In this document: positions 634 through 21,433 of the stretch, in pieces
Layout: the number at the start of each line of letters is the position of its first letter
Position numbering within the stretch: the stretch's first letter is position 1
Origin: a virus
Length of the DNA: 24,394 nt
IMG/VR virus record: IMGVR_UViG_3300022198_001487
Coordinates: 1 to 24,394 of that record
Direction: 5' to 3' (one strand)
Position numbers and translations under genes: made by a program
The notes under the pieces: model-generated
The model's input: only the letters and a program-made list of their open reading frames with translations
The model's database searches: none
Told to the model about the DNA's origin: nothing

Positions 634-1275
634 TTAAACCTTAATTCCTATAAAAATATGATCTACACGTGATGCTGTCCATGTGTTTGTTGCTGTTGCT
701 CCAAAGCCTGTAGTCAGTGCTGATCTAACATTACTGTCAAGAGCACTTGCATCCCACACAGTTAATATCACAATGCTTCCATTAGAAACACTGTTTAGTG
801 CATTGGCTAGTGACGTTACTGCTCCAGGATCGCCATAGGTATCATAATTTGCTGTGCTGAGTGTGTTACCATATGTATCTAATACTACCATGTTGTGACC
901 ACGAGCGCCAATGTTTAATACTTCAATATCATTAACCACTACACGAGCATTTTGATATCCTGGTACATCAAAAGATGATGAATATACGTAAATTTTATTA
1001 CCACTTGCATATTGTGTTGTTTCAATAGCACTGATTGTGTTGAATTCTTCATATACTGTAAAAGACGATGTTGGTATCCACGGACGGCCACCTACTAACC
1101 CTCCTGTATTTGGATTATCAATTACATCATTGTCATTGTATTGAGTTGGCAATTGTGTTATATCATATGTTGCTCTAGGATGTCCAGCGGCGGCACGTTT
1201 ACTTGCGGCTAGATCTAATTTGGATTTTTGACGCAACTCTTTGGTTGAAAGTGTTGATATACCGTTAGCCGCCAT
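634..1275 (-). CDS. Structural protein with ILEI-like (FAM3-type) domain
   Basis: This is a 213-residue protein. Residues 1-70 are a Lys/Ala-rich leader and linker (GISTLSTKELRQKSKLDL, then QLPTQY and NPNTGGLVGGRPW), a style I associate with marine phage virion proteins. Residues 95-213 resemble the interleukin-like EMT inducer (ILEI/FAM3) fold: the pattern GARGHNMVVLD, then YDTYGDP, a helix, GSIVILTVWDASA, and a closing HIFIGIKV strand. ILEI domains occur in eukaryotic FAM3 and POMGNT1 and in phage structural proteins, where they are thought to bind glycans or act as appendages. Start: ATG at 1275 with AGGA upstream, overlapping the end of gp13. The domain call is by pattern only. Confidence 0.65.
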   Translation of the reverse strand: MAANGISTLSTKELRQKSKLDLAASKRAAAGHPRATYDITQLPTQYNDNDVIDNPNTGGLVGGRPWIPTSSFTVYEEFNTISAIETTQYASGNKIYVYSSSFDVPGYQNARVVVNDIEVLNIGARGHNMVVLDTYGNTLSTANYDTYGDPGAVTSLANALNSVSNGSIVILTVWDASALDSNVRSALTTGFGATATNTWTASRVDHIFIGIKV

Positions 1276-5538: not shown

Positions 5539-5961
5539 ATGTATGACGCAGTAGGAGCCACATTTTTATCACAAGATACAAAAAAGTTTTGTCTTAATAA
5601 AAGATCAAAAAGCGTAAGCAATTCTGGTACTTGGAGTTTTTGGGGTGGTAAAGTTGAATCTGGTGAAACTGTCATTGGTGCGTTAAAAAGAGAAATCAAA
5701 GAAGAAATTGGATTTGTTCCTAAAATAGTAAAAATACATCCTTTAGATATCTATCAAAGTAATGATGGTCATTTTATGTATCATACATTTGTTATCATAA
5801 CACCAACTGAATTTGAACCAAATATGAACCATGAATCACAAGATTATAGTTGGTCGAAACTAGCAAATCTTCCTAGACCTTTACACCAAGGTGCACGTAA
5901 AACTTTACTAGATAAAAACAATGTTAAAAAGTTAAAACTGATAGTAAATAGTATTGACTAA
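5539..5961 (+). CDS. Nudix hydrolase
   Basis: This 140-residue protein has a complete Nudix box at residues 37-59: G37-x5-E43-x7-R51-E52-x2-E55-E56-x-G58-F59, beginning GGKVESGE. The acidic residues bind divalent metal for hydrolysis of a nucleoside diphosphate linked to another group. The substrate (NTP, ADP-ribose, NAD, Ap4A or an RNA cap) cannot be read from the motif. T4 also encodes a Nudix enzyme (NudE). The first beta strand (AVGATFL) starts right after Met1, so no downstream start is plausible. No Shine-Dalgarno sequence is present, and the predicted +1 coincides with the ATG. It sits alone between structural genes, after gp15. Confidence 0.9.
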   Translation: MYDAVGATFLSQDTKKFCLNKRSKSVSNSGTWSFWGGKVESGETVIGALKREIKEEIGFVPKIVKIHPLDIYQSNDGHFMYHTFVIITPTEFEPNMNHESQDYSWSKLANLPRPLHQGARKTLLDKNNVKKLKLIVNSID

Positions 5962-5989: not shown

Positions 5990-6658
5990 TTGTCACGCAT
6001 AATAAACTTTAATCAGGCTAGAATAGCACACACTTTTGAAAAATTTGCAAAAGACAGTGTTATTACAGATAATATTCTTGAAAACATAGTTCCAAATTTT
6101 CATTTTCAAAGCGACATAGATGATGTTTTAAACGAATATACAGATCGTGATCGTAAACGTTACTTTAAAATTTTACAAGATATGAAAAATGCTGTAAAAC
6201 AAATGACCAGCGAAGACAACATGAGTATACGTTTTCAATTAGAAGATGAGTATTTTGAACTACTACAAAAATTAGAAACTAATAACATAAAATATAAGAT
6301 ACCGTCTATACTAATAAAATATAGAAAAGATATAAATCCTATTAGAGCATTAAAATTTGAACTAGAAGAAATTATGGCTATGCCTGAATCAGATGATGAC
6401 TATCATATATGGTTAATTAGACAATATAAAAATGAAGAAAAAATTAATAACATTATAAAAGATATTAATGCTGATTTAAGAAGTATTGTAAAAATGCAAG
6501 AAAAATACAAAGACGCTAAAAAAGAATATCCTTATTTTGTATTACCAATGAGTTATTATCACTGTATTGAAATTGAAACTGATATGAAAAGTTGGATTAA
6601 AACTCTAAAAGAATTTTTAATTTGGACTCAAGATTCTATCAACAAAAGATATCTTTAA
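5990..6658 (+). CDS. Unknown protein, probable TTG start
   Basis: This 222-residue protein is rich in Lys, Ile, Asp and Glu and is mostly helical by eye, with no signal peptide, membrane segment or motif I recognise. Start choice: TTG at 5990 is preceded by AAAGGATATAAACA, almost identical to the AAAAGGATATAGAC before the gp14 ATG at 2282, which strongly supports the rare start codon. It begins 28 nt after the Nudix stop and is probably co-transcribed with it. Its TAA stop overlaps the TAA stop of the convergent fibre gene in a shared TTAA. No function is proposed. Confidence 0.7.
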   Translation: MSRIINFNQARIAHTFEKFAKDSVITDNILENIVPNFHFQSDIDDVLNEYTDRDRKRYFKILQDMKNAVKQMTSEDNMSIRFQLEDEYFELLQKLETNNIKYKIPSILIKYRKDINPIRALKFELEEIMAMPESDDDYHIWLIRQYKNEEKINNIIKDINADLRSIVKMQEKYKDAKKEYPYFVLPMSYYHCIEIETDMKSWIKTLKEFLIWTQDSINKRYL

Positions 6659-8970
6659 ACAACAATGTTAACCAACTTAATGCCTGTGTTACTGTTATCT
6701 TCTAAAGATTTACCAATCACACAATAACCTGCCGGTGCTGGACTATCATCTGTTAGTGTTGTAGCAGTACCTGGTGTTACATTAGTTACAAGTAGATCGC
6801 CTTTTTTAACAGGACCTTCTACTTTACAAGGAACTTTACCACGAAGTGCAACTGCTACACCATCTGCATCTTTGTTCATTAGGTAGGCTGGTGCTGTTGA
6901 TACTACACCTGCTACTCTGTGATCTAATAATCTATTACACTGTGTAACTTCATGATCTCCACCAAACACAACAACTGTACCAGGTTCATAGTCTGCATCT
7001 GATTTATAAATCTCTGCCAAGTCAGCATACTGTGCCTGAGTTGCTGTTAGGTATGCAGTGGCCGCCTGTATGTCTGCATTTGCTGTAGCAACAATATTTA
7101 CATCTGCCGCAGTGTTTGTTGTTGTTGCCGCTACCCATCTATCATCTGTTTCATCCCAATACCATGCGGCATTGTTTTCAGCAGTACCACGTTGTACCAT
7201 AACACCACCATCATTGGTGTTGTTTGCTGGTTGTGTGCTGTGTTTGTTCAGCAACATTATAGCATCTTCAACTTCAACGTTGGTTACTTCAAGTGTTGTT
7301 GCTGTACCTGTAACTGTTAAGTTACCAAGTATTTGTACAACGCCTGTACCTTGTGGATCTAATACAATATTGTTAGCACCTGTTGAAATAATTGAATGTG
7401 TTTGTACATCTAAATCCCCGCCAAGTTGTGGTGTTGTATCATCAACAACTTCTGTGATAACATCTATACCTGCTGTCCAAATAAAAGATGATGTACCATG
7501 ATCGTATTGTAATAGTTTTCCATCTTCTGAAGCACCTACTGACGAAACACTACCTAAATCTGTCAATGTCATTGTAGCCGCTACTGCCTGTGGAGTAGCA
7601 CCAACCCAATTTGATCCATTATATCTTAACAAGTTGTTGGTTGCTGATGTTAATACTGGATTCATTGTAGGTGTTTGATTTATCCAAGTAGTGGTACTGT
7701 TTGCATATAGTATTTGTCCTGTTTGTTGTGATGTAATAGTTACATATTGTAAGTCATTAAGTTCGTCAGGTGTATCAATTTTAAATTCTGTTGCGGTAAA
7801 ATTTATATCACTTAATTCATATGCATTTGCGGCACCTGAATTAAATTGAACTGCAATTTTATATGCTACTGATGTTACTGATGGACTAGATCCTGTTAAA
7901 TCATCTAAATGTGTAAACCCTAGAGGAAAACCTTGGGTCATTGTATTGTACTCAACAACTGGTGTTGCTGGCCATACACCACTACCATTAATTGATCTAA
8001 ATAAACCAATTTTAGAACCACCTGCTGTTTCTGTATCAATATTAGATGCATATGAAATTTCAACTTTTCCATTTGTTGTAATAGTAAAACTAGAAATTAT
8101 TGCTACATCAGTCCAACTTGTTGCTAGACCAGTTAAGTTAACACTAGTTGTTGACGATTTTTGTGTGTTAACTACTCCAAGTGCTGGTGACTGTGCTACA
8201 AAATTTGCACCATTATACATTAAAATTTGTCCGGTTGCTGGAGCAACACTTGTAATGTCAACATCATTTAATGCGTCTACTGATGTTGTGGCAATTCTTG
8301 CATCAATGTCTGTGTTAGCTCTTGCAGTTGTATAGTATAAGTTTGTTCCTTCACTTAAATTGGTTGTTGATTTAGTTGCTAATCTTAAATCAAATCTTGT
8401 GTCTGTGTAGTATAGATTTGTGCCTTCTGTTAAATTTGTTGTTGTCTTGCCTGAAAATGCTGTGTCAAATCTACCTGTTGTATAATATAAATTTGTGCCT
8501 TCTGCTAAATTAGTTGTTGATTTAGTTGCTAATCTTGTGTCAAATCTACCATCTGTGTAGTATAAGTTAGTGCCTTCTGCCACATCATCTGTTGTTAGTG
8601 TGTCAAATTCAACTCCTGTTTCACCTGAATTTACTTTTAGATATCGTCCTGCTGTGCCCGTGTAACTTGCTGGAGTGTCTGATAAATTTGTCAAACTTGT
8701 ACTAATAGCGCCGGCATTAACAATATTAGCACCACCAAAATCCCAGCCACTACTACTAGTGTTATAGCCAAATGTAGCAATAATTGATCCACTTGATTCA
8801 ACTTCAATACCAGATAATTGAGTACCTGTTAGGGTACCGTCTTTATTAAGAGTAATTAGTCGATCTTTTACTGTTAAATCGTCTGTATTGGTTGTGATCT
8901 GTGATCCAGAAACCTGAAGATTTCCAGTAATAATTAAGTCGTTTGATCTAATAACTGTTTGATCTGCCAT
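6655..8970 (-). CDS. Tail-fibre-like / phage appendage protein with tandem EGTNLYYT repeats
   Basis: This 771-residue protein starts ADQTVIRSNDLIITGNLQVSG, a common fibre N-terminus. Residues about 13-60 (GNLQVSG, then LTVKDRLITLNK) are echoed at about 546-590 (GNLTVTG, then VEVEDAIMLLNK), an internal duplication. Residues about 132-220 contain tandem 25-residue repeats beginning EGTNLYYT. Residues about 647-771 (YADLAEIYKSDADYEPGTVV, FGGDHEVTQ, VALRGKVPCKVEGPVKKGD) look like the C-terminal domain of many marine phage fibres, which is related in pattern to auto-cleaving peptidase G2-type tail-spike ends. It is presumably a trimeric receptor-binding or whisker-like appendage. A late promoter lies at 8999-9006. 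Confidence 0.75.
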   Translation of the reverse strand: MADQTVIRSNDLIITGNLQVSGSQITTNTDDLTVKDRLITLNKDGTLTGTQLSGIEVESSGSIIATFGYNTSSSGWDFGGANIVNAGAISTSLTNLSDTPASYTGTAGRYLKVNSGETGVEFDTLTTDDVAEGTNLYYTDGRFDTRLATKSTTNLAEGTNLYYTTGRFDTAFSGKTTTNLTEGTNLYYTDTRFDLRLATKSTTNLSEGTNLYYTTARANTDIDARIATTSVDALNDVDITSVAPATGQILMYNGANFVAQSPALGVVNTQKSSTTSVNLTGLATSWTDVAIISSFTITTNGKVEISYASNIDTETAGGSKIGLFRSINGSGVWPATPVVEYNTMTQGFPLGFTHLDDLTGSSPSVTSVAYKIAVQFNSGAANAYELSDINFTATEFKIDTPDELNDLQYVTITSQQTGQILYANSTTTWINQTPTMNPVLTSATNNLLRYNGSNWVGATPQAVAATMTLTDLGSVSSVGASEDGKLLQYDHGTSSFIWTAGIDVITEVVDDTTPQLGGDLDVQTHSIISTGANNIVLDPQGTGVVQILGNLTVTGTATTLEVTNVEVEDAIMLLNKHSTQPANNTNDGGVMVQRGTAENNAAWYWDETDDRWVAATTTNTAADVNIVATANADIQAATAYLTATQAQYADLAEIYKSDADYEPGTVVVFGGDHEVTQCNRLLDHRVAGVVSTAPAYLMNKDADGVAVALRGKVPCKVEGPVKKGDLLVTNVTPGTATTLTDDSPAPAGYCVIGKSLEDNSNTGIKLVNIVV
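8310..8577 (-). repeat. 75-bp tandem repeats inside the fibre gene
   Basis: Three full 75-bp units start with the GAA of EGTNLYYT at 8577, 8502 and 8427, and a fourth, diverging unit starts at 8352. Each unit encodes EGTNLYYT followed by a short turn, a degenerate RFDxRLATKST segment and TTNL. The protein repeat is conserved better than the DNA, so this is an old, selected repeat. Such repeats form the coiled or triple-beta shaft of trimeric fibres. Confidence 0.85.
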
Positions 8971-15445: not shown

Positions 15446-17764
15446 TTATAGTTTTTCTAAAGCCGCTACTTGTTTTTTCATTGTCTCAAGTTGCTGTTGT
15501 TGTAGAGAAATTGTTGTTTCATAAAATGCTGTTTCTGGAGAAGAATTTGGATCGCTTGATCCTCCCATTGGAAGATACTGTTTCATAATACGCATTCTAG
15601 CATCATTTAAAACTGATGGGTCTGTGTTTGCTACTCCATTGGCTTTTTCTTCTTCATTTTCTTTATTACCTAGATCATCAATTTTAGCTTTTTCTATCAA
15701 TTTACCAGCTTCTAACGATGCTTTGTAATCGTATTCACTAAAATATTTTTCAAATTCGCTACGATTTCCTTCCATTAATTTAGCCATAGCATCTTGATTT
15801 TTTTTGTTATTCTCATCAAGTGTACTAACTAAGTTTTTTAATGTTGTGTCTAACTGTGTAAGTTCGTCAGTGTACTCTGCAATTTTACTGTCATCACGAT
15901 ATTTTGCATTGCTTTCATACCATGCGGCGCCGCCGGCTGGCATAACTGCTTTGTTTTGTTCTCTTTCAAGTTTGCTTTGAAGTCTTTCTCTTCGAGCTTG
16001 TAAATCTGTAATCTCTTGACCGCCATATACATTTCCTTGTCTTGCTTCTTTTTCAATTGCTTTATATGGATTTAAGAAATCCTCGTTGAATCTTTCATTT
16101 CTAGATGTACCAATAAATGGTATATCCATTGATATCATTTCCCAGCCGGCTACAATTGCTCTTGTAATTGCATCACCTAGTGCTGAAAAAATTGGTCCAA
16201 GTGCTTTTGCAATAAAGTCTCCAATACTTGTTGCTTGGGTAAGATCACCCATCCAGTTGCCTAACCATGTGCCTATTTTATCAGCAAAACCCAAAACCCA
16301 ATCTGCTAATTTTTGTGCATTCTCTGTAAGCATAGTCATTGTTTTTTCAATTGCTTTTAGTAATTTGTCATTGCCAAATAATCTTGTAAAGAATGTGTTA
16401 AATACCATTTTAAATTTTTGTGTTGCACGTTCAAAATTAATAAAAGCAACTGACAGTTGATCAATTTTTGATTCTTGTCTTAGTTTTTGAAGATCTTTGT
16501 ATATTTCTATTTTACCATCTTCTTCTAACTGTTGAATTTTATTAATTAATGCAATTTGTTGTCCAGCCGCCGCCGCATATTCTGTGTTAGAACGTTCAAT
16601 AATTCCTAGTCTTTCTCGTTCAGCTTTACTAGTGTTAGCAATTTCATCAATTAAATTTGCAGTGGCTTCTGCCGCTTCTTGATCACTCATGCTTTCTAAA
16701 TTGTTTATAATACCATCTAATGAATTATACAATCTCTTGTTAACTGCTAGTAATGATCTACCTGCTTCTGTAAAGAACAATCCTCCTCGTCCATATGCCT
16801 GTGTAAATGTTGTAGCAAGTTGATCACCAAACTGTGTTCCTAGTCCAGCAAACATACCTGCAACTGTTTGTGTTGCGGCTATCAATGTACGCTGTACTGT
16901 TGCTGGTAATGTATTCATTCTATTAGTAAATGCGTCTATCGATGTTGCTGATTTTATCACTGCATCAATTTGATCTCTACTTACATTTGAAAGTTGAGTA
17001 AACGCTGTAATATTTTTTAAATAGTTCGAAGCCATTTCTTCTAAATATTCGTTATTTTCGTTTGAAAGAATACCAGCATCTTTTAGTTGTTCAATATAAC
17101 TTCCGGTATATTCTGTTAGTTCTGACAAACTCATGCCTAACAAACCTTGACTTTGTAAATTATCCCTAATTGATTTGTTTAGCTCAGAAAAATTTCGAGT
17201 TCCTAAAATTCCAACTGATGTTGCATACTTGCCAAGAATTTCTGTATATTGATCTATACCCATTTCAGCCGCCACTGCCGCCTTTGCTAATCCCATTGCT
17301 CCCTGTTCAAATCTAAAACCCATTGAGAACATTTGTCTATAAGCATCTGAAAACTGTTTTAATCTTCCAATTACTGCTCCAATTGCCATTGCAAAGCCGC
17401 CTACAGCCGCACCTATAAATCCTAATTTCATAGCAAATCTTCCCATTATTAGGTTAACTGATTTGAAAGGAGTTTTTAAATTTTTATCAACTAAACTTTT
17501 AGTATAATTTCCACTTTTTTCACGTAACGACTTAACAAGATTTTTCGAATTTTGACTTTGTGCTTTCATGCTTTCTTCAAATCTTTGAGTAAGTGTTTTT
17601 ATTGATTTAGTTTGAGTTTGTTGTTCTTTTAAATCTTTTTCGTCGGATTTTTTAGAACCTTCTAATGCTTTAAGAATTTTGTTTTGAGTGGCTTCGGTAG
17701 CCCATTCTGGTATATCGCTACCAAAATTTATTTTATCTATAGTGATTCTATCGCCGTCAGCCAT
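15446..17764 (-). CDS. Probable tail tape-measure protein
   Basis: This 772-residue protein begins with a charged helical region (residues 28-90, Lys/Gln/Glu rich), followed by a Gly/Ala-rich hydrophobic segment at about 105-133 (LGFIGAAVGGFAMAIGAVIG). Then comes a long helical body with Ala/Gly-rich stretches, a second amphipathic hydrophobic region near IGTWLGNWMGDLTQATS and IAKALGPIFSALGDAITRAI, and a coiled-coil C-terminus ending SLQQQQLETMKKQVAALEKL. This architecture fits a tape measure (T4 gp29 is 590 aa). It faces the gp26/gp51 chaperone genes across a shared promoter, and tail chaperones normally neighbour the tape measure gene. It could instead be another large tail or hub protein. 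Confidence 0.6.
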   Translation of the reverse strand: MADGDRITIDKINFGSDIPEWATEATQNKILKALEGSKKSDEKDLKEQQTQTKSIKTLTQRFEESMKAQSQNSKNLVKSLREKSGNYTKSLVDKNLKTPFKSVNLIMGRFAMKLGFIGAAVGGFAMAIGAVIGRLKQFSDAYRQMFSMGFRFEQGAMGLAKAAVAAEMGIDQYTEILGKYATSVGILGTRNFSELNKSIRDNLQSQGLLGMSLSELTEYTGSYIEQLKDAGILSNENNEYLEEMASNYLKNITAFTQLSNVSRDQIDAVIKSATSIDAFTNRMNTLPATVQRTLIAATQTVAGMFAGLGTQFGDQLATTFTQAYGRGGLFFTEAGRSLLAVNKRLYNSLDGIINNLESMSDQEAAEATANLIDEIANTSKAERERLGIIERSNTEYAAAAGQQIALINKIQQLEEDGKIEIYKDLQKLRQESKIDQLSVAFINFERATQKFKMVFNTFFTRLFGNDKLLKAIEKTMTMLTENAQKLADWVLGFADKIGTWLGNWMGDLTQATSIGDFIAKALGPIFSALGDAITRAIVAGWEMISMDIPFIGTSRNERFNEDFLNPYKAIEKEARQGNVYGGQEITDLQARRERLQSKLEREQNKAVMPAGGAAWYESNAKYRDDSKIAEYTDELTQLDTTLKNLVSTLDENNKKNQDAMAKLMEGNRSEFEKYFSEYDYKASLEAGKLIEKAKIDDLGNKENEEEKANGVANTDPSVLNDARMRIMKQYLPMGGSSDPNSSPETAFYETTISLQQQQLETMKKQVAALEKL

Positions 17765-17862: not shown

Positions 17863-18705
17863 ATGAGCGAAAGCAAACTAGCAAAATACTACAGAGCACC
17901 AAAACTGTATGTTCGTATACCAAGTCAGGGTGCATTTAATCCTGATATAGAGCAGTCTATGAGTGAAGAACTTGCTGTTATGGCAATGACTGGGCGTGAC
18001 GAAACTATGATCAAAAACCCAGATGCGTTGTTAAACGGAGAAGCAATTACATCAGTTATCAAAAGTTGTGTTCCAGGAATCAAAGATCCAAAGGATATTC
18101 CAATCACAGATGTTGATACTCTTTTAATTGCTATTAAAATTGCAACCAACGGTGAAGAACACGAAGTAAGTGCTAAATGTCCAAAATGTAAAACAGAAAC
18201 TAGAGGTGTAGTAAATTTAAGAAACGTACTACCTACTGTAAAATTATTGGAATCAGAATACCCAATCAAATTAGATACCGGTGTAACCGTTTATATTAAA
18301 CCTTATACCTATGCTATGCAAACCGAAGCGGCGTTGGCGGCATTTGACGAAACAAAAACATTGCAAAACTTAACTAAAGAAAAAGAAATAAATTCTGAAA
18401 GTATGGCAATATATAATAAAAGTTTTAGAAGAATGGCAGAAATGAGTGTTTCATTACTAGCAAGAAGTATTGTAAAAGTTGTTACTCCGGAAGGCGATGA
18501 AGTTTCTGATCCAAATGAAATTTTTGCATTTATTCAAAACATTGACTCTACTGCGGCAAAAACAATCGATGACACTTTAGCAAAAATCAATTCAATTGAT
18601 ATAGACAAAAGAATTGAAATGACTTGTGAAAATGAAAACTGTAAAAATGTTTGGAGCACTGAAGTAGAATATAATGCGGCAGATTTTTTCGGAATTGGCT
18701 CTTAA
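17863..18705 (+). CDS. gp26: Baseplate hub / tail assembly chaperone, gp26-like
   Basis: This 280-residue protein matches the T4 gp26-type hub-assembly family of marine myoviruses: KLYVRIPSQGAF, ITSVIKSCVPGIKDPKDIPITDVDTLLIAIKIATNGEEHEV, then a four-Cys zinc-ribbon-like pair, CPKCKTE near residue 106 and CENENCKNVW near 263, and TGVTVYIKPYTYAM. It has an AGGAAAG ribosome-binding site before the ATG. Its last codons carry a slippery heptamer and stem-loop, so a fraction of ribosomes should read on into the gp51-like frame. The zero-frame end is DFFGIGS. Confidence 0.8.
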   Translation: MSESKLAKYYRAPKLYVRIPSQGAFNPDIEQSMSEELAVMAMTGRDETMIKNPDALLNGEAITSVIKSCVPGIKDPKDIPITDVDTLLIAIKIATNGEEHEVSAKCPKCKTETRGVVNLRNVLPTVKLLESEYPIKLDTGVTVYIKPYTYAMQTEAALAAFDETKTLQNLTKEKEINSESMAIYNKSFRRMAEMSVSLLARSIVKVVTPEGDEVSDPNEIFAFIQNIDSTAAKTIDDTLAKINSIDIDKRIEMTCENENCKNVWSTEVEYNAADFFGIGS

Positions 18706-18716
18706 AGGCTGAGCCA
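18684..18716 (+). promoter_or_regulatory. Programmed -1 ribosomal frameshift signal
   Basis: The slippery heptamer T TTT TTC (18684-18690) is in the correct phase: zero-frame codons are GAT TTT TTC. After a 5-nt spacer (18691-18695) comes a 6-bp stem TGGCTC / GAGCCA (18696-18701 with 18711-18716) with a 9-nt loop that contains the zero-frame stop codon. Phase, spacing and downstream structure all fit the X XXY YYZ class known from lambda-type tail chaperone genes. Confidence 0.8.
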
Positions 18717-18920
18717 CAAGAAATAAATGTCTACTTTGAACAATTAGAAAAAGAAAGAAACTCAATCAAACAACAGATAACCGAAATCTGTTGGTACATG
18801 CGTGGTTCCATATCTTGGGAAGAAGCATGGAGTTTGAGTGATGTTGACCGTAATGACTTAACTAAATTTATTGGTGAAAACGCCGAACGATTTAAAAAGG
18901 CCGGTCAAATAGTTGTTTAG
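18684..18920 (+). CDS. gp51: gp51-like domain reached by -1 frameshift from gp26
   Basis: In the -1 frame relative to gp26 the reading frame is open to TAG at 18918-18920. After a slip at 18684-18690 it adds 76 residues after F276 (RNWLLKAEPQEINVYFEQLEKE, then ITEICWYMRGSISWEEAWSL, then DVDRNDLTKFIGENAERFKK), for a predicted 352-residue gp26-gp51 fusion. The CWYMRGSISWEEAWSL core resembles T4 gp51-type and lambda-T-type tail-assembly chaperone domains. A TAA lies in this frame just upstream of the slip site, and no ATG, GTG or TTG occurs before the mid-domain ATG at 18798, so independent initiation would lose half of the domain. The stop overlaps the stop of the convergent nuclease gene. Confidence 0.8.
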   Translation, partial: FFRNWLLKAEPQEINVYFEQLEKERNSIKQQITEICWYMRGSISWEEAWSLSDVDRNDLTKFIGENAERFKKAGQIVV

Positions 18921-20239: not shown

Positions 20240-21433
20240 CTATTGTGACTTTTCTATTGCTGTTCGATGTTTCTCAGGAATTTGTGCATTTGTTCGATGT
20301 CCGTAATGTCTACAAGATTTAATACACACATCTAAATTAAATTTATTTTTATCAGTTTTTAAATTATTATTAATATATTTAAATGTTTCACTAGTTAATA
20401 CATCATATAACAAATGATTATTTGTGATTTTTATATCTTCTAACTCTATATAACTTTTTTCTTTATTATGATTCATTAGTTTTTCCCATTGTTTTATTTC
20501 TCTTAAATAACTATAACTTTCTCCACTATTTAAAAAACTTAATGATTTATTATTCCATATATTTTTATTTTTTAACCAATACAAATAATGATAATGACTG
20601 GTCCAACAACATGGCCAGACTGTCATATCACTGACTATTTGTATTTCTTTGTGTACTTGCCAAACACATACATCATTGTATTGTTTAGTATCATTTGGAA
20701 AGTCATTTTCAATAATATAATCTTCATTGGAAAAATCTATTGTCCAATTTTTAACTTTTTGTTTATACAATTCTACGTTTTTTGGTTTATGAATTAAATC
20801 TTTAATTAAATTTCCGCCCCATGTTCCATCATTTAAAGAAAAATCCCACCCCCAACTTTTTGCTAGATTACGTGCTTGATCAACTTGATGTGCATTATGA
20901 TCAAAACGATTCATTCTCCATCTTACATTAACCTTGTGCTTACGCAATATTTCTGCGTTTGTTAGAATGTGTTTCCATTGTACATTTCTTCTATACAAAT
21001 GATTAGTATCTTCTAAACCATCAATTGAAAAAACCAAATGTATATCTGCATTTGGATTTTGTTGCGAAATATAACTACCAATAGTTTCAAACTTTTTAGC
21101 CCATGGTCCGCCACCGTTTGTGTGTAGAGTTTGTTTTATCTCTGGTTTATTTTTGTCAACATCAATTAATATTTTATCAACATTTGGATGCATCATTGCA
21201 TCACCTATATTACCATTATACACAATTTTTTTTAATTTTTTTAAACGTGGATCTATAACAGATTGCACAAACGAATTTACATCATTTAATGTTGAATGTC
21301 GTTGCGTGTGAACTATATTAGGTTGTGTTAGCATTGTTTCTTTGTCTGTTCTTGGACAAACTAAACAATTTGCGTTGCAATAACTGGTCGGTTCCCATTG
21401 TACTAGTTCTAGTTCTTCTGGTTTTATGTACAT
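20240..21433 (-). CDS. Radical SAM protein with SPASM-like C-terminus
   Basis: This 397-residue protein has the radical SAM cluster motif C19-x3-C23-x2-C26 in EPTSYCNANCLVCPR, which binds the 4Fe-4S cluster that cleaves S-adenosylmethionine. The usual barrel landmarks follow: YNGNIGDAMMHP near 72-83, TLHTNGGG near 102-109, and VFSIDGLED near 134-142. The C-terminus has further cysteines (C256, C275-C276 in VWPCCW, C370 and C374 in CIKSCRHYG), as in SPASM/twitch domains that hold auxiliary clusters. SPASM enzymes often modify peptides or sugars, but the substrate here is unknown. It is last in an operon after gp46 and the glycosyltransferase-like gene, with only 8 nt between the latter two genes' ends. 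Confidence 0.85.
   Translation of the reverse strand: MYIKPEELELVQWEPTSYCNANCLVCPRTDKETMLTQPNIVHTQRHSTLNDVNSFVQSVIDPRLKKLKKIVYNGNIGDAMMHPNVDKILIDVDKNKPEIKQTLHTNGGGPWAKKFETIGSYISQQNPNADIHLVFSIDGLEDTNHLYRRNVQWKHILTNAEILRKHKVNVRWRMNRFDHNAHQVDQARNLAKSWGWDFSLNDGTWGGNLIKDLIHKPKNVELYKQKVKNWTIDFSNEDYIIENDFPNDTKQYNDVCVWQVHKEIQIVSDMTVWPCCWTSHYHYLYWLKNKNIWNNKSLSFLNSGESYSYLREIKQWEKLMNHNKEKSYIELEDIKITNNHLLYDVLTSETFKYINNNLKTDKNKFNLDVCIKSCRHYGHRTNAQIPEKHRTAIEKSQ

Follow-up and report, generated by a model that had tools for sequence, protein, structure and literature searches.

Background

The closest described systems are the tail assembly chaperones (TACs) of phage lambda and of the T4-like phages. In lambda, the short form (TAC-N) is G, the long form (TAC-NC) is GT, and the slippery sequence is G GGA AAG. 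In the T4-like phages, frameshifting is reportedly kept in several groups, while T4 itself is said to use genes 26 and 51, according to Vladimirov, Gautam and Davidson in 2022. Some T4-like phages do without frameshifting and have one gene for the short TAC and another, fused gene for the long TAC (PRFect, PMC10885494), and poly-T slippery sequences are known in the TAC-N genes of T4-like phages (PMC12846349). On T4-like TACs, each of the two papers cites the same study (Vladimirov, Gautam & Davidson 2022, Virology 566:9-15). A further comparison is offered by the TAC of Vandenendeviridae and Andersonviridae, represented by phage Adele (PMC12846349), in which a -1 frameshift likewise takes place in TAC-N at a T-rich motif and the long form extends over a stretch that carries another annotation. 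The motif in Adele, however, is GTTTTT.

The sequence analysed here, referred to below as the window, is a 24,394-nucleotide stretch of viral DNA (IMG/VR record IMGVR_UViG_3300022198_001487). Its positions 17863-18920 very probably constitute a single TAC gene with a programmed -1 ribosomal frameshift at T TTT TTC. As far as the citing papers describe the T4-like TACs of Vladimirov et al., the locus shares with them the family (T4 26/51), the short and long pair, and a poly-T slippery site in TAC-N. It is thus a further example of an arrangement already published for T4-like phages. An earlier note on this DNA, made from the letters alone, knew of no described frameshift linking T4 gp26 and gp51; this does not hold, since the T4-like TAC genes were identified in Vladimirov et al. 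2022, as cited in PMC10885494 and PMC12846349. The features peculiar to the clade of the window, the spread of the arrangement in jumbo phages, and a covarying cyanophage stem lying over the annotated gp51 start may be unpublished.

The zero-frame gene and its genomic context

The zero-frame ORF (17863-18705, plus strand) encodes 280 aa, and its 3' end reads GCG GCA GAT TTT TTC GGA ATT GGC TCT TAA, the TAA stop at 18703-18705 ending the short form. The product is probably a TAC-N of the T4 gp26/gp51 type. It matches the T4_baseplate family (PF12322, E=4e-19, above the cut-off) in a Pfam search and PHROG_150, 'baseplate hub' (E=2.9e-23), in a PHROG search. A protein search found homologues in 63 phage records; the matches listed are mostly jumbo phages of ~285-490 kb, such as 121Q, RaK2, PA5oct, Atu_ph07, Phosso and SCTP-2. 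The protein carries two cysteine pairs, C106/C109 and C255/C260, and the cysteines are conserved. Its predicted structure (mean pLDDT 81) has no significant match among PDB structures, the HK97 tail assembly chaperone 2ob9 standing at rank 11 (E=2.9, TMt 0.42), and a PDB sequence search gave no convincing match.

The chaperone gene adjoins a divergently transcribed gene for a 772-aa tape-measure-like virion protein (15446-17764, minus strand). In several jumbo relatives a counterpart has the same position, between portal and gp26, and the one in RaK2 is annotated as similar to tape measure protein. The 772-aa protein matches no Pfam family above the cut-off; judging from synteny and that one annotation, it is probably the tape measure protein. 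The record of PA5oct contains mass spectrometry notes on the portal and the tape-measure-like protein, and none on the gp26-like gene. The earlier note was right that a tape-measure-like gene lies next door, but it lies on the opposite strand and is divergent, and not downstream as in lambda.

A close relative, 79% identical in the -1 domain, lies on a 328-kb contig (IMGVR_UViG_3300020477_000990), so the 24 kb of the window probably represent one piece of the genome of a jumbo marine myovirus. Elsewhere in the window, there is a protein with an ILEI (interleukin-like EMT inducer) domain (634-1275, minus strand; PF15711, E=2e-12), a NUDIX hydrolase amid structural genes (5539-5961, plus strand; PF00293, E=1.6e-17), and a radical SAM-like protein whose match is below the curated cut-off (20240-21433, minus strand; PF04055, E=1.5e-5). 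A 771-aa protein with the repeated motif 'L(S/A/T)EGTNLYYT' (6655-8970, minus strand) belongs to no Pfam family and is probably a tail fibre or structural protein.

The slippery heptamer and the -1 frame

The heptamer T TTT TTC occupies positions 18684-18690 (plus strand). Position 18684 is the third base of GAT, which places the heptamer in the X XXY YYZ phase, 12 nt ahead of the zero-frame stop. The number of heptamers was rejected as evidence, as the AT-rich window holds 18 copies against 15.2 +/- 3.5 expected by chance. This one is the sole in-phase T-TTT-TTC among the 8 Phe-Phe pairs in the 22 main ORFs of the window, where TTC makes up 12% of the Phe codons.

That the heptamer reflects more than chance follows from its conservation across lineages. 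Homologues of the zero-frame gene, jumbo phages and cyanophages included, were grouped into lineages at 60% identity. At the equivalent in-phase place, 15 of the 19 lineages have TTTTTTC, one has TTTTTTT and three have neither. The chance expectation from codon use is ~9% per lineage, and the corresponding binomial values are tiny while assuming independent lineages, which is only roughly true. Specifically, TTTTTTC is kept at 80/80 cyanophage-type IMG/VR loci, and is found in phase in the cyanophages Bellamy and Sf-FS3, the Schizotequatrovirus phages VH7D and V07, and the Ishigurovirus Aswh_1. In phage 3M the site is G GTT TTC, of the T7 gene 10 type. The deep alignment contained no stretch conserved enough to serve as a family search query, and IMG/VR queries with 121Q and Atu_ph07 returned few new loci.

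The base following the heptamer points in the same direction. In 13 of 16 lineages, G is the first base of the zero-frame codon at this place (background 0.335, P ~1e-4), while the residue that it encodes varies among Gly, Ala, Val, Glu and Asp. With G in first position, the -1 codon becomes CGN, that is Arg, and it lies upstream of any possible start. We regard this as a mark of double coding, which supports reading through the slip site.

The -1 frame (TAC-C, 18690-18920, plus strand) is open from TTT TTT CGG to the TAG at 18918-18920. The first of its 76 new codons is CGG (18690-18692), and the predicted long form has 276 + 76 = 352 aa. In ten sequences of the clade of the window, pN/pS is 0.226 in the -1 frame, the two remaining frames having 1.47 and 1.86; there are no stops in the -1 frame and many in the others; and third codon positions of the -1 frame are the most variable, 52 of 71 of them differing. 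These measures show purifying selection on the -1 frame. Searched by itself, the -1 domain gave no significant match in Pfam or PHROG. Its model (pLDDT 75) is all-helical, with helices at 2-8, 11-40, 45-49 and 53-72, and has no significant fold match in the PDB. Lineage conservation of the heptamer and selection on the -1 frame together back the proposal of the earlier note that two chaperone parts are joined at T TTT TTC by a programmed -1 frameshift.

The downstream hairpin

In the window, a 5-nt spacer, GGAAT (18691-18695), separates the heptamer from a stem-loop, TGGCTC-TTAAAGGCT-GAGCCA (18696-18716, plus strand), a candidate stimulator of slippage. The 6-bp stem consists of the arms TGGCTC (18696-18701) and GAGCCA (18711-18716), and the loop TTAAAGGCT (18702-18710) holds the zero-frame stop. 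For the 38 nt downstream of the heptamer, the MFE is -9.2 kcal/mol (z=-2.2). Direct reading confirms every coordinate first proposed for the heptamer and its phase, the spacer, the stem-loop with the stop in its loop, and the 76-codon -1 frame. The spacer has equal length in ten clade members, and TGGCTC...GAGCC is unchanged in 10/10 sequences of the clade, against the 52/71 variable third positions of the -1 frame.

Beyond the clade the picture is more varied. Salicola phage SCTP-2 retains GGCTC/GAGCC with an altered loop. Other lineages have different stems at nearly equal distance (for example IC12, z=-4.5), and in some the hairpin is weak or absent. In Phosso (z=-3.4) and Atu_ph07 (z=-6.6) a longer-range stem follows the heptamer. 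These two phages have a stem in common, GGCTCTTG/CAAGAGCC or GGCTCTTTG/CAAAGAGCC, with a long loop (L001 4831-4930, L003 4816-4895). Comparison of related loci thus confirmed the heptamer in 15/19 lineages, and the spacer and hairpin within the ten clade members, but the hairpin differs between lineages and a start codon is present in some relatives.

The cyanophages provide a parallel. Their gp26 and small 'gp51' (Kyanoviridae, Bellamy; Sf-FS3) show an in-phase TTTTTTC, Arg as the next codon, a -1 domain, and a hairpin ~7 nt downstream; in contrast to the window, TAC-C is shorter (~64-68 aa), an ATG usually lies inside the stem, and two genes are annotated. The cyanophage stem has 8 bp, begins 7 nt past the heptamer, and is paired in 93% of cells (30 distinct sequences). 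None of 500 shuffles and no slid register reaches its covariation score; most of the signal comes from one pair, and this evidence is suggestive, not overwhelming. The annotated cyanophage gp51 start ATG sits in the 5' arm of this stem. A role of such lineage-specific hairpins in stimulating slippage would be consistent with these observations.

Relation to T4 gp26 and gp51

In T4, genes 26 (208 aa) and 51 (249 aa) are divergent neighbours, and both products hit PF12322 (216 and 178 bits). Of the 282 positions of PHROG_150, T4 gp51 spans 13-280 and T4 gp26 14-235; in cyanophages, the zero frame aligns to 5-232 and the -1 frame to 231-277. In hhalign, the C-terminus of T4 gp51 and the cyanophage -1 frame match at 97.4% (E=1.5e-11). 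This coverage and the profile match of the cyanophage -1 domain to the end of gp51 identify T4 gp26 as the short form and T4 gp51 as the long one, each with its own gene of a paralogous pair. On the same comparison, T4 gp51 is equivalent, in a single frame, to the complete frameshift product and not to the -1 segment. The zero-frame product of the window belongs to the family of both T4 proteins, and the layout of gp51 is that of the fusion; the difference is that T4 makes both forms from two divergent paralogous genes without slippage.

The jumbo-type -1 domain, that of the window included, is longer than the cyanophage type and occupies the same place in the chain. Its direct match to T4 gp51 is weak (hhalign 15%, E=0.0018) and its match to the cyanophage -1 domain moderate (hhalign 55%, E=1.2e-4). 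The jumbo and the T4/cyanophage C-parts share an FF..LL..P.EI start and an R-containing helix start after it. T4 gp26 ends in KEFFELL, with G TTC TTT G at the site equivalent to the heptamer, which may be a remnant of a slip site.

The view that gp26 and gp51 are the T4 counterparts of G and GT is correct in essence; the locus is, however, better described as a TAC-N with an optional TAC-C than as gp26 fused to gp51. The -1 domain was also considered as an independent T4 gp51, as in the earlier note. This was rejected: T4 gp51, at 249 aa, spans both parts and corresponds to the whole fusion, and the domain alone lacks a significant Pfam or PHROG match.

Alternative explanations

It is improbable that the frameshift is real and its products are structural proteins of the baseplate hub instead of tape measure chaperones. 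T4 gp26 is placed in the hub by some studies (PMC3004832), and databases name the family 'baseplate hub'. On the other hand, T4 gp51 is needed for assembly yet absent from the particle, and gp26 and gp51 are both listed as hub assembly chaperones (PMC3004832). Moreover, it is a hallmark of TACs that slippage yields a short and a long form next to a tape-measure-like gene, and the TAC assignment has already been published, according to the citations of Vladimirov et al. 2022 in PMC10885494 and PMC12846349. By analogy with lambda G/GT, where the gp26-like protein would correspond to the short form (TAC-N) and the fusion to the long form (TAC-NC), and with the T4 data, the two forms are presumably tape measure chaperones.

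Very improbable is a second explanation, by which the -1 segment would be a small gene in its own right, of the ordinary kind, translated from its own start or through translational coupling at the gp26 stop. Its appeal lies in the annotations of several relatives, where the C-part is a separate gene (in cyanophages, 'gp51, baseplate hub assembly catalyst'). None of the 11 jumbo-phage records examined annotates the joined frame, the C-part being a separate gene, sometimes late-started, or left blank. An ATG overlaps or just follows the stop in 121Q, Phosso, Atu_ph07, VH7D and cyanophages, so that the C-part could also start separately there, and Pseudomonas phage Cygsa01 and Vibrio phage K444 have a TAATG start and no heptamer. 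In the window, however, the -1 frame contains no ATG, GTG or TTG, only ATA and ATC, from the preceding -1 stop to a Met codon 114 nt past the heptamer start, and PA5oct, RaK2 and Aswh_1 likewise lack ATG, GTG and TTG before the conserved sequence. The absence of a usable start codon, as originally noted for this frame, is thus borne out. A separate start would also leave unexplained the conserved TTTTTTC and Arg codon upstream of any start, the cyanophage ATG is buried in a conserved stem, and T4 gp51 has both parts in one chain. A sequencing or assembly error (miscounted T's) or a decaying gene is already refuted and has practically no probability left: the site does lie within a T homopolymer, a known error type, but six T's, no more and no fewer, and the same frames are found in nine further contigs of the clade, whose -1 domains show 77-83% identity, isolate genomes of many phages agree, purifying selection acts on the -1 frame, and the base-call error near 18684-18690 that the earlier note had allowed for is not borne out.

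Some relatives may have adopted other solutions. The TAATG in Cygsa01 and K444 suggests stop-start coupling as a possible third way. Four loci of Ackermannviridae have no T TTT TTC; the gp26-like gene ends in (A/G)TT TTC AT(T/C) followed by a stop, and the -1 frame still reads the conserved FHL(I/M)FE. There is TAATG in RC-2014 and ATT or ATC at this place in the others, where slippage at a weaker site or initiation at a non-ATG codon may take place.

Proposed mechanism and implications

Under the frameshift reading, most ribosomes would stop at 18703-18705 and release the 280-aa short form, which corresponds to T4 gp26 and lambda G. On T TTT TTC, a minority would shift back by one base, aided by the hairpin 5 nt downstream, with the P-site UUU and A-site UUC re-pairing on UUU UUU, and would then read CGG. 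The 352-aa long form made by these ribosomes would end in a helical domain and correspond to T4 gp51 and lambda GT. In tail assembly, the two forms would act as chaperones of the tape measure protein, and neither would stay in the virion. T4-type phages would obtain the same protein pair from the paralogous genes 26 and 51. The sequences themselves show the signal and its conservation, that the -1 frame is selected for coding, and that T4 gp51 is homologous to such a fusion; that slippage occurs and is the minor event, its rate, the part played by the hairpin and the chaperone function are inferences.

It seems rather likely that the same holds for most T4-related phages outside the T4 group, both jumbo phages and hundreds of cyanophages. 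In these, the annotated small 'gp51' would be the C-terminal part of a frameshift product, and a lineage-specific hairpin 5-7 nt past T TTT TTC would stimulate slippage and, in cyanophages, also hide the apparent gp51 start. The two-gene layout of T4 would then be a derived exception.

The frameshift reading places T4 gp26 and gp51, long called hub proteins of unclear function, among the short and long tape measure chaperones. The frameshift form would be widespread in marine and jumbo relatives, and many deposited genomes would carry a missing or mis-started reading frame for the C-terminal part.
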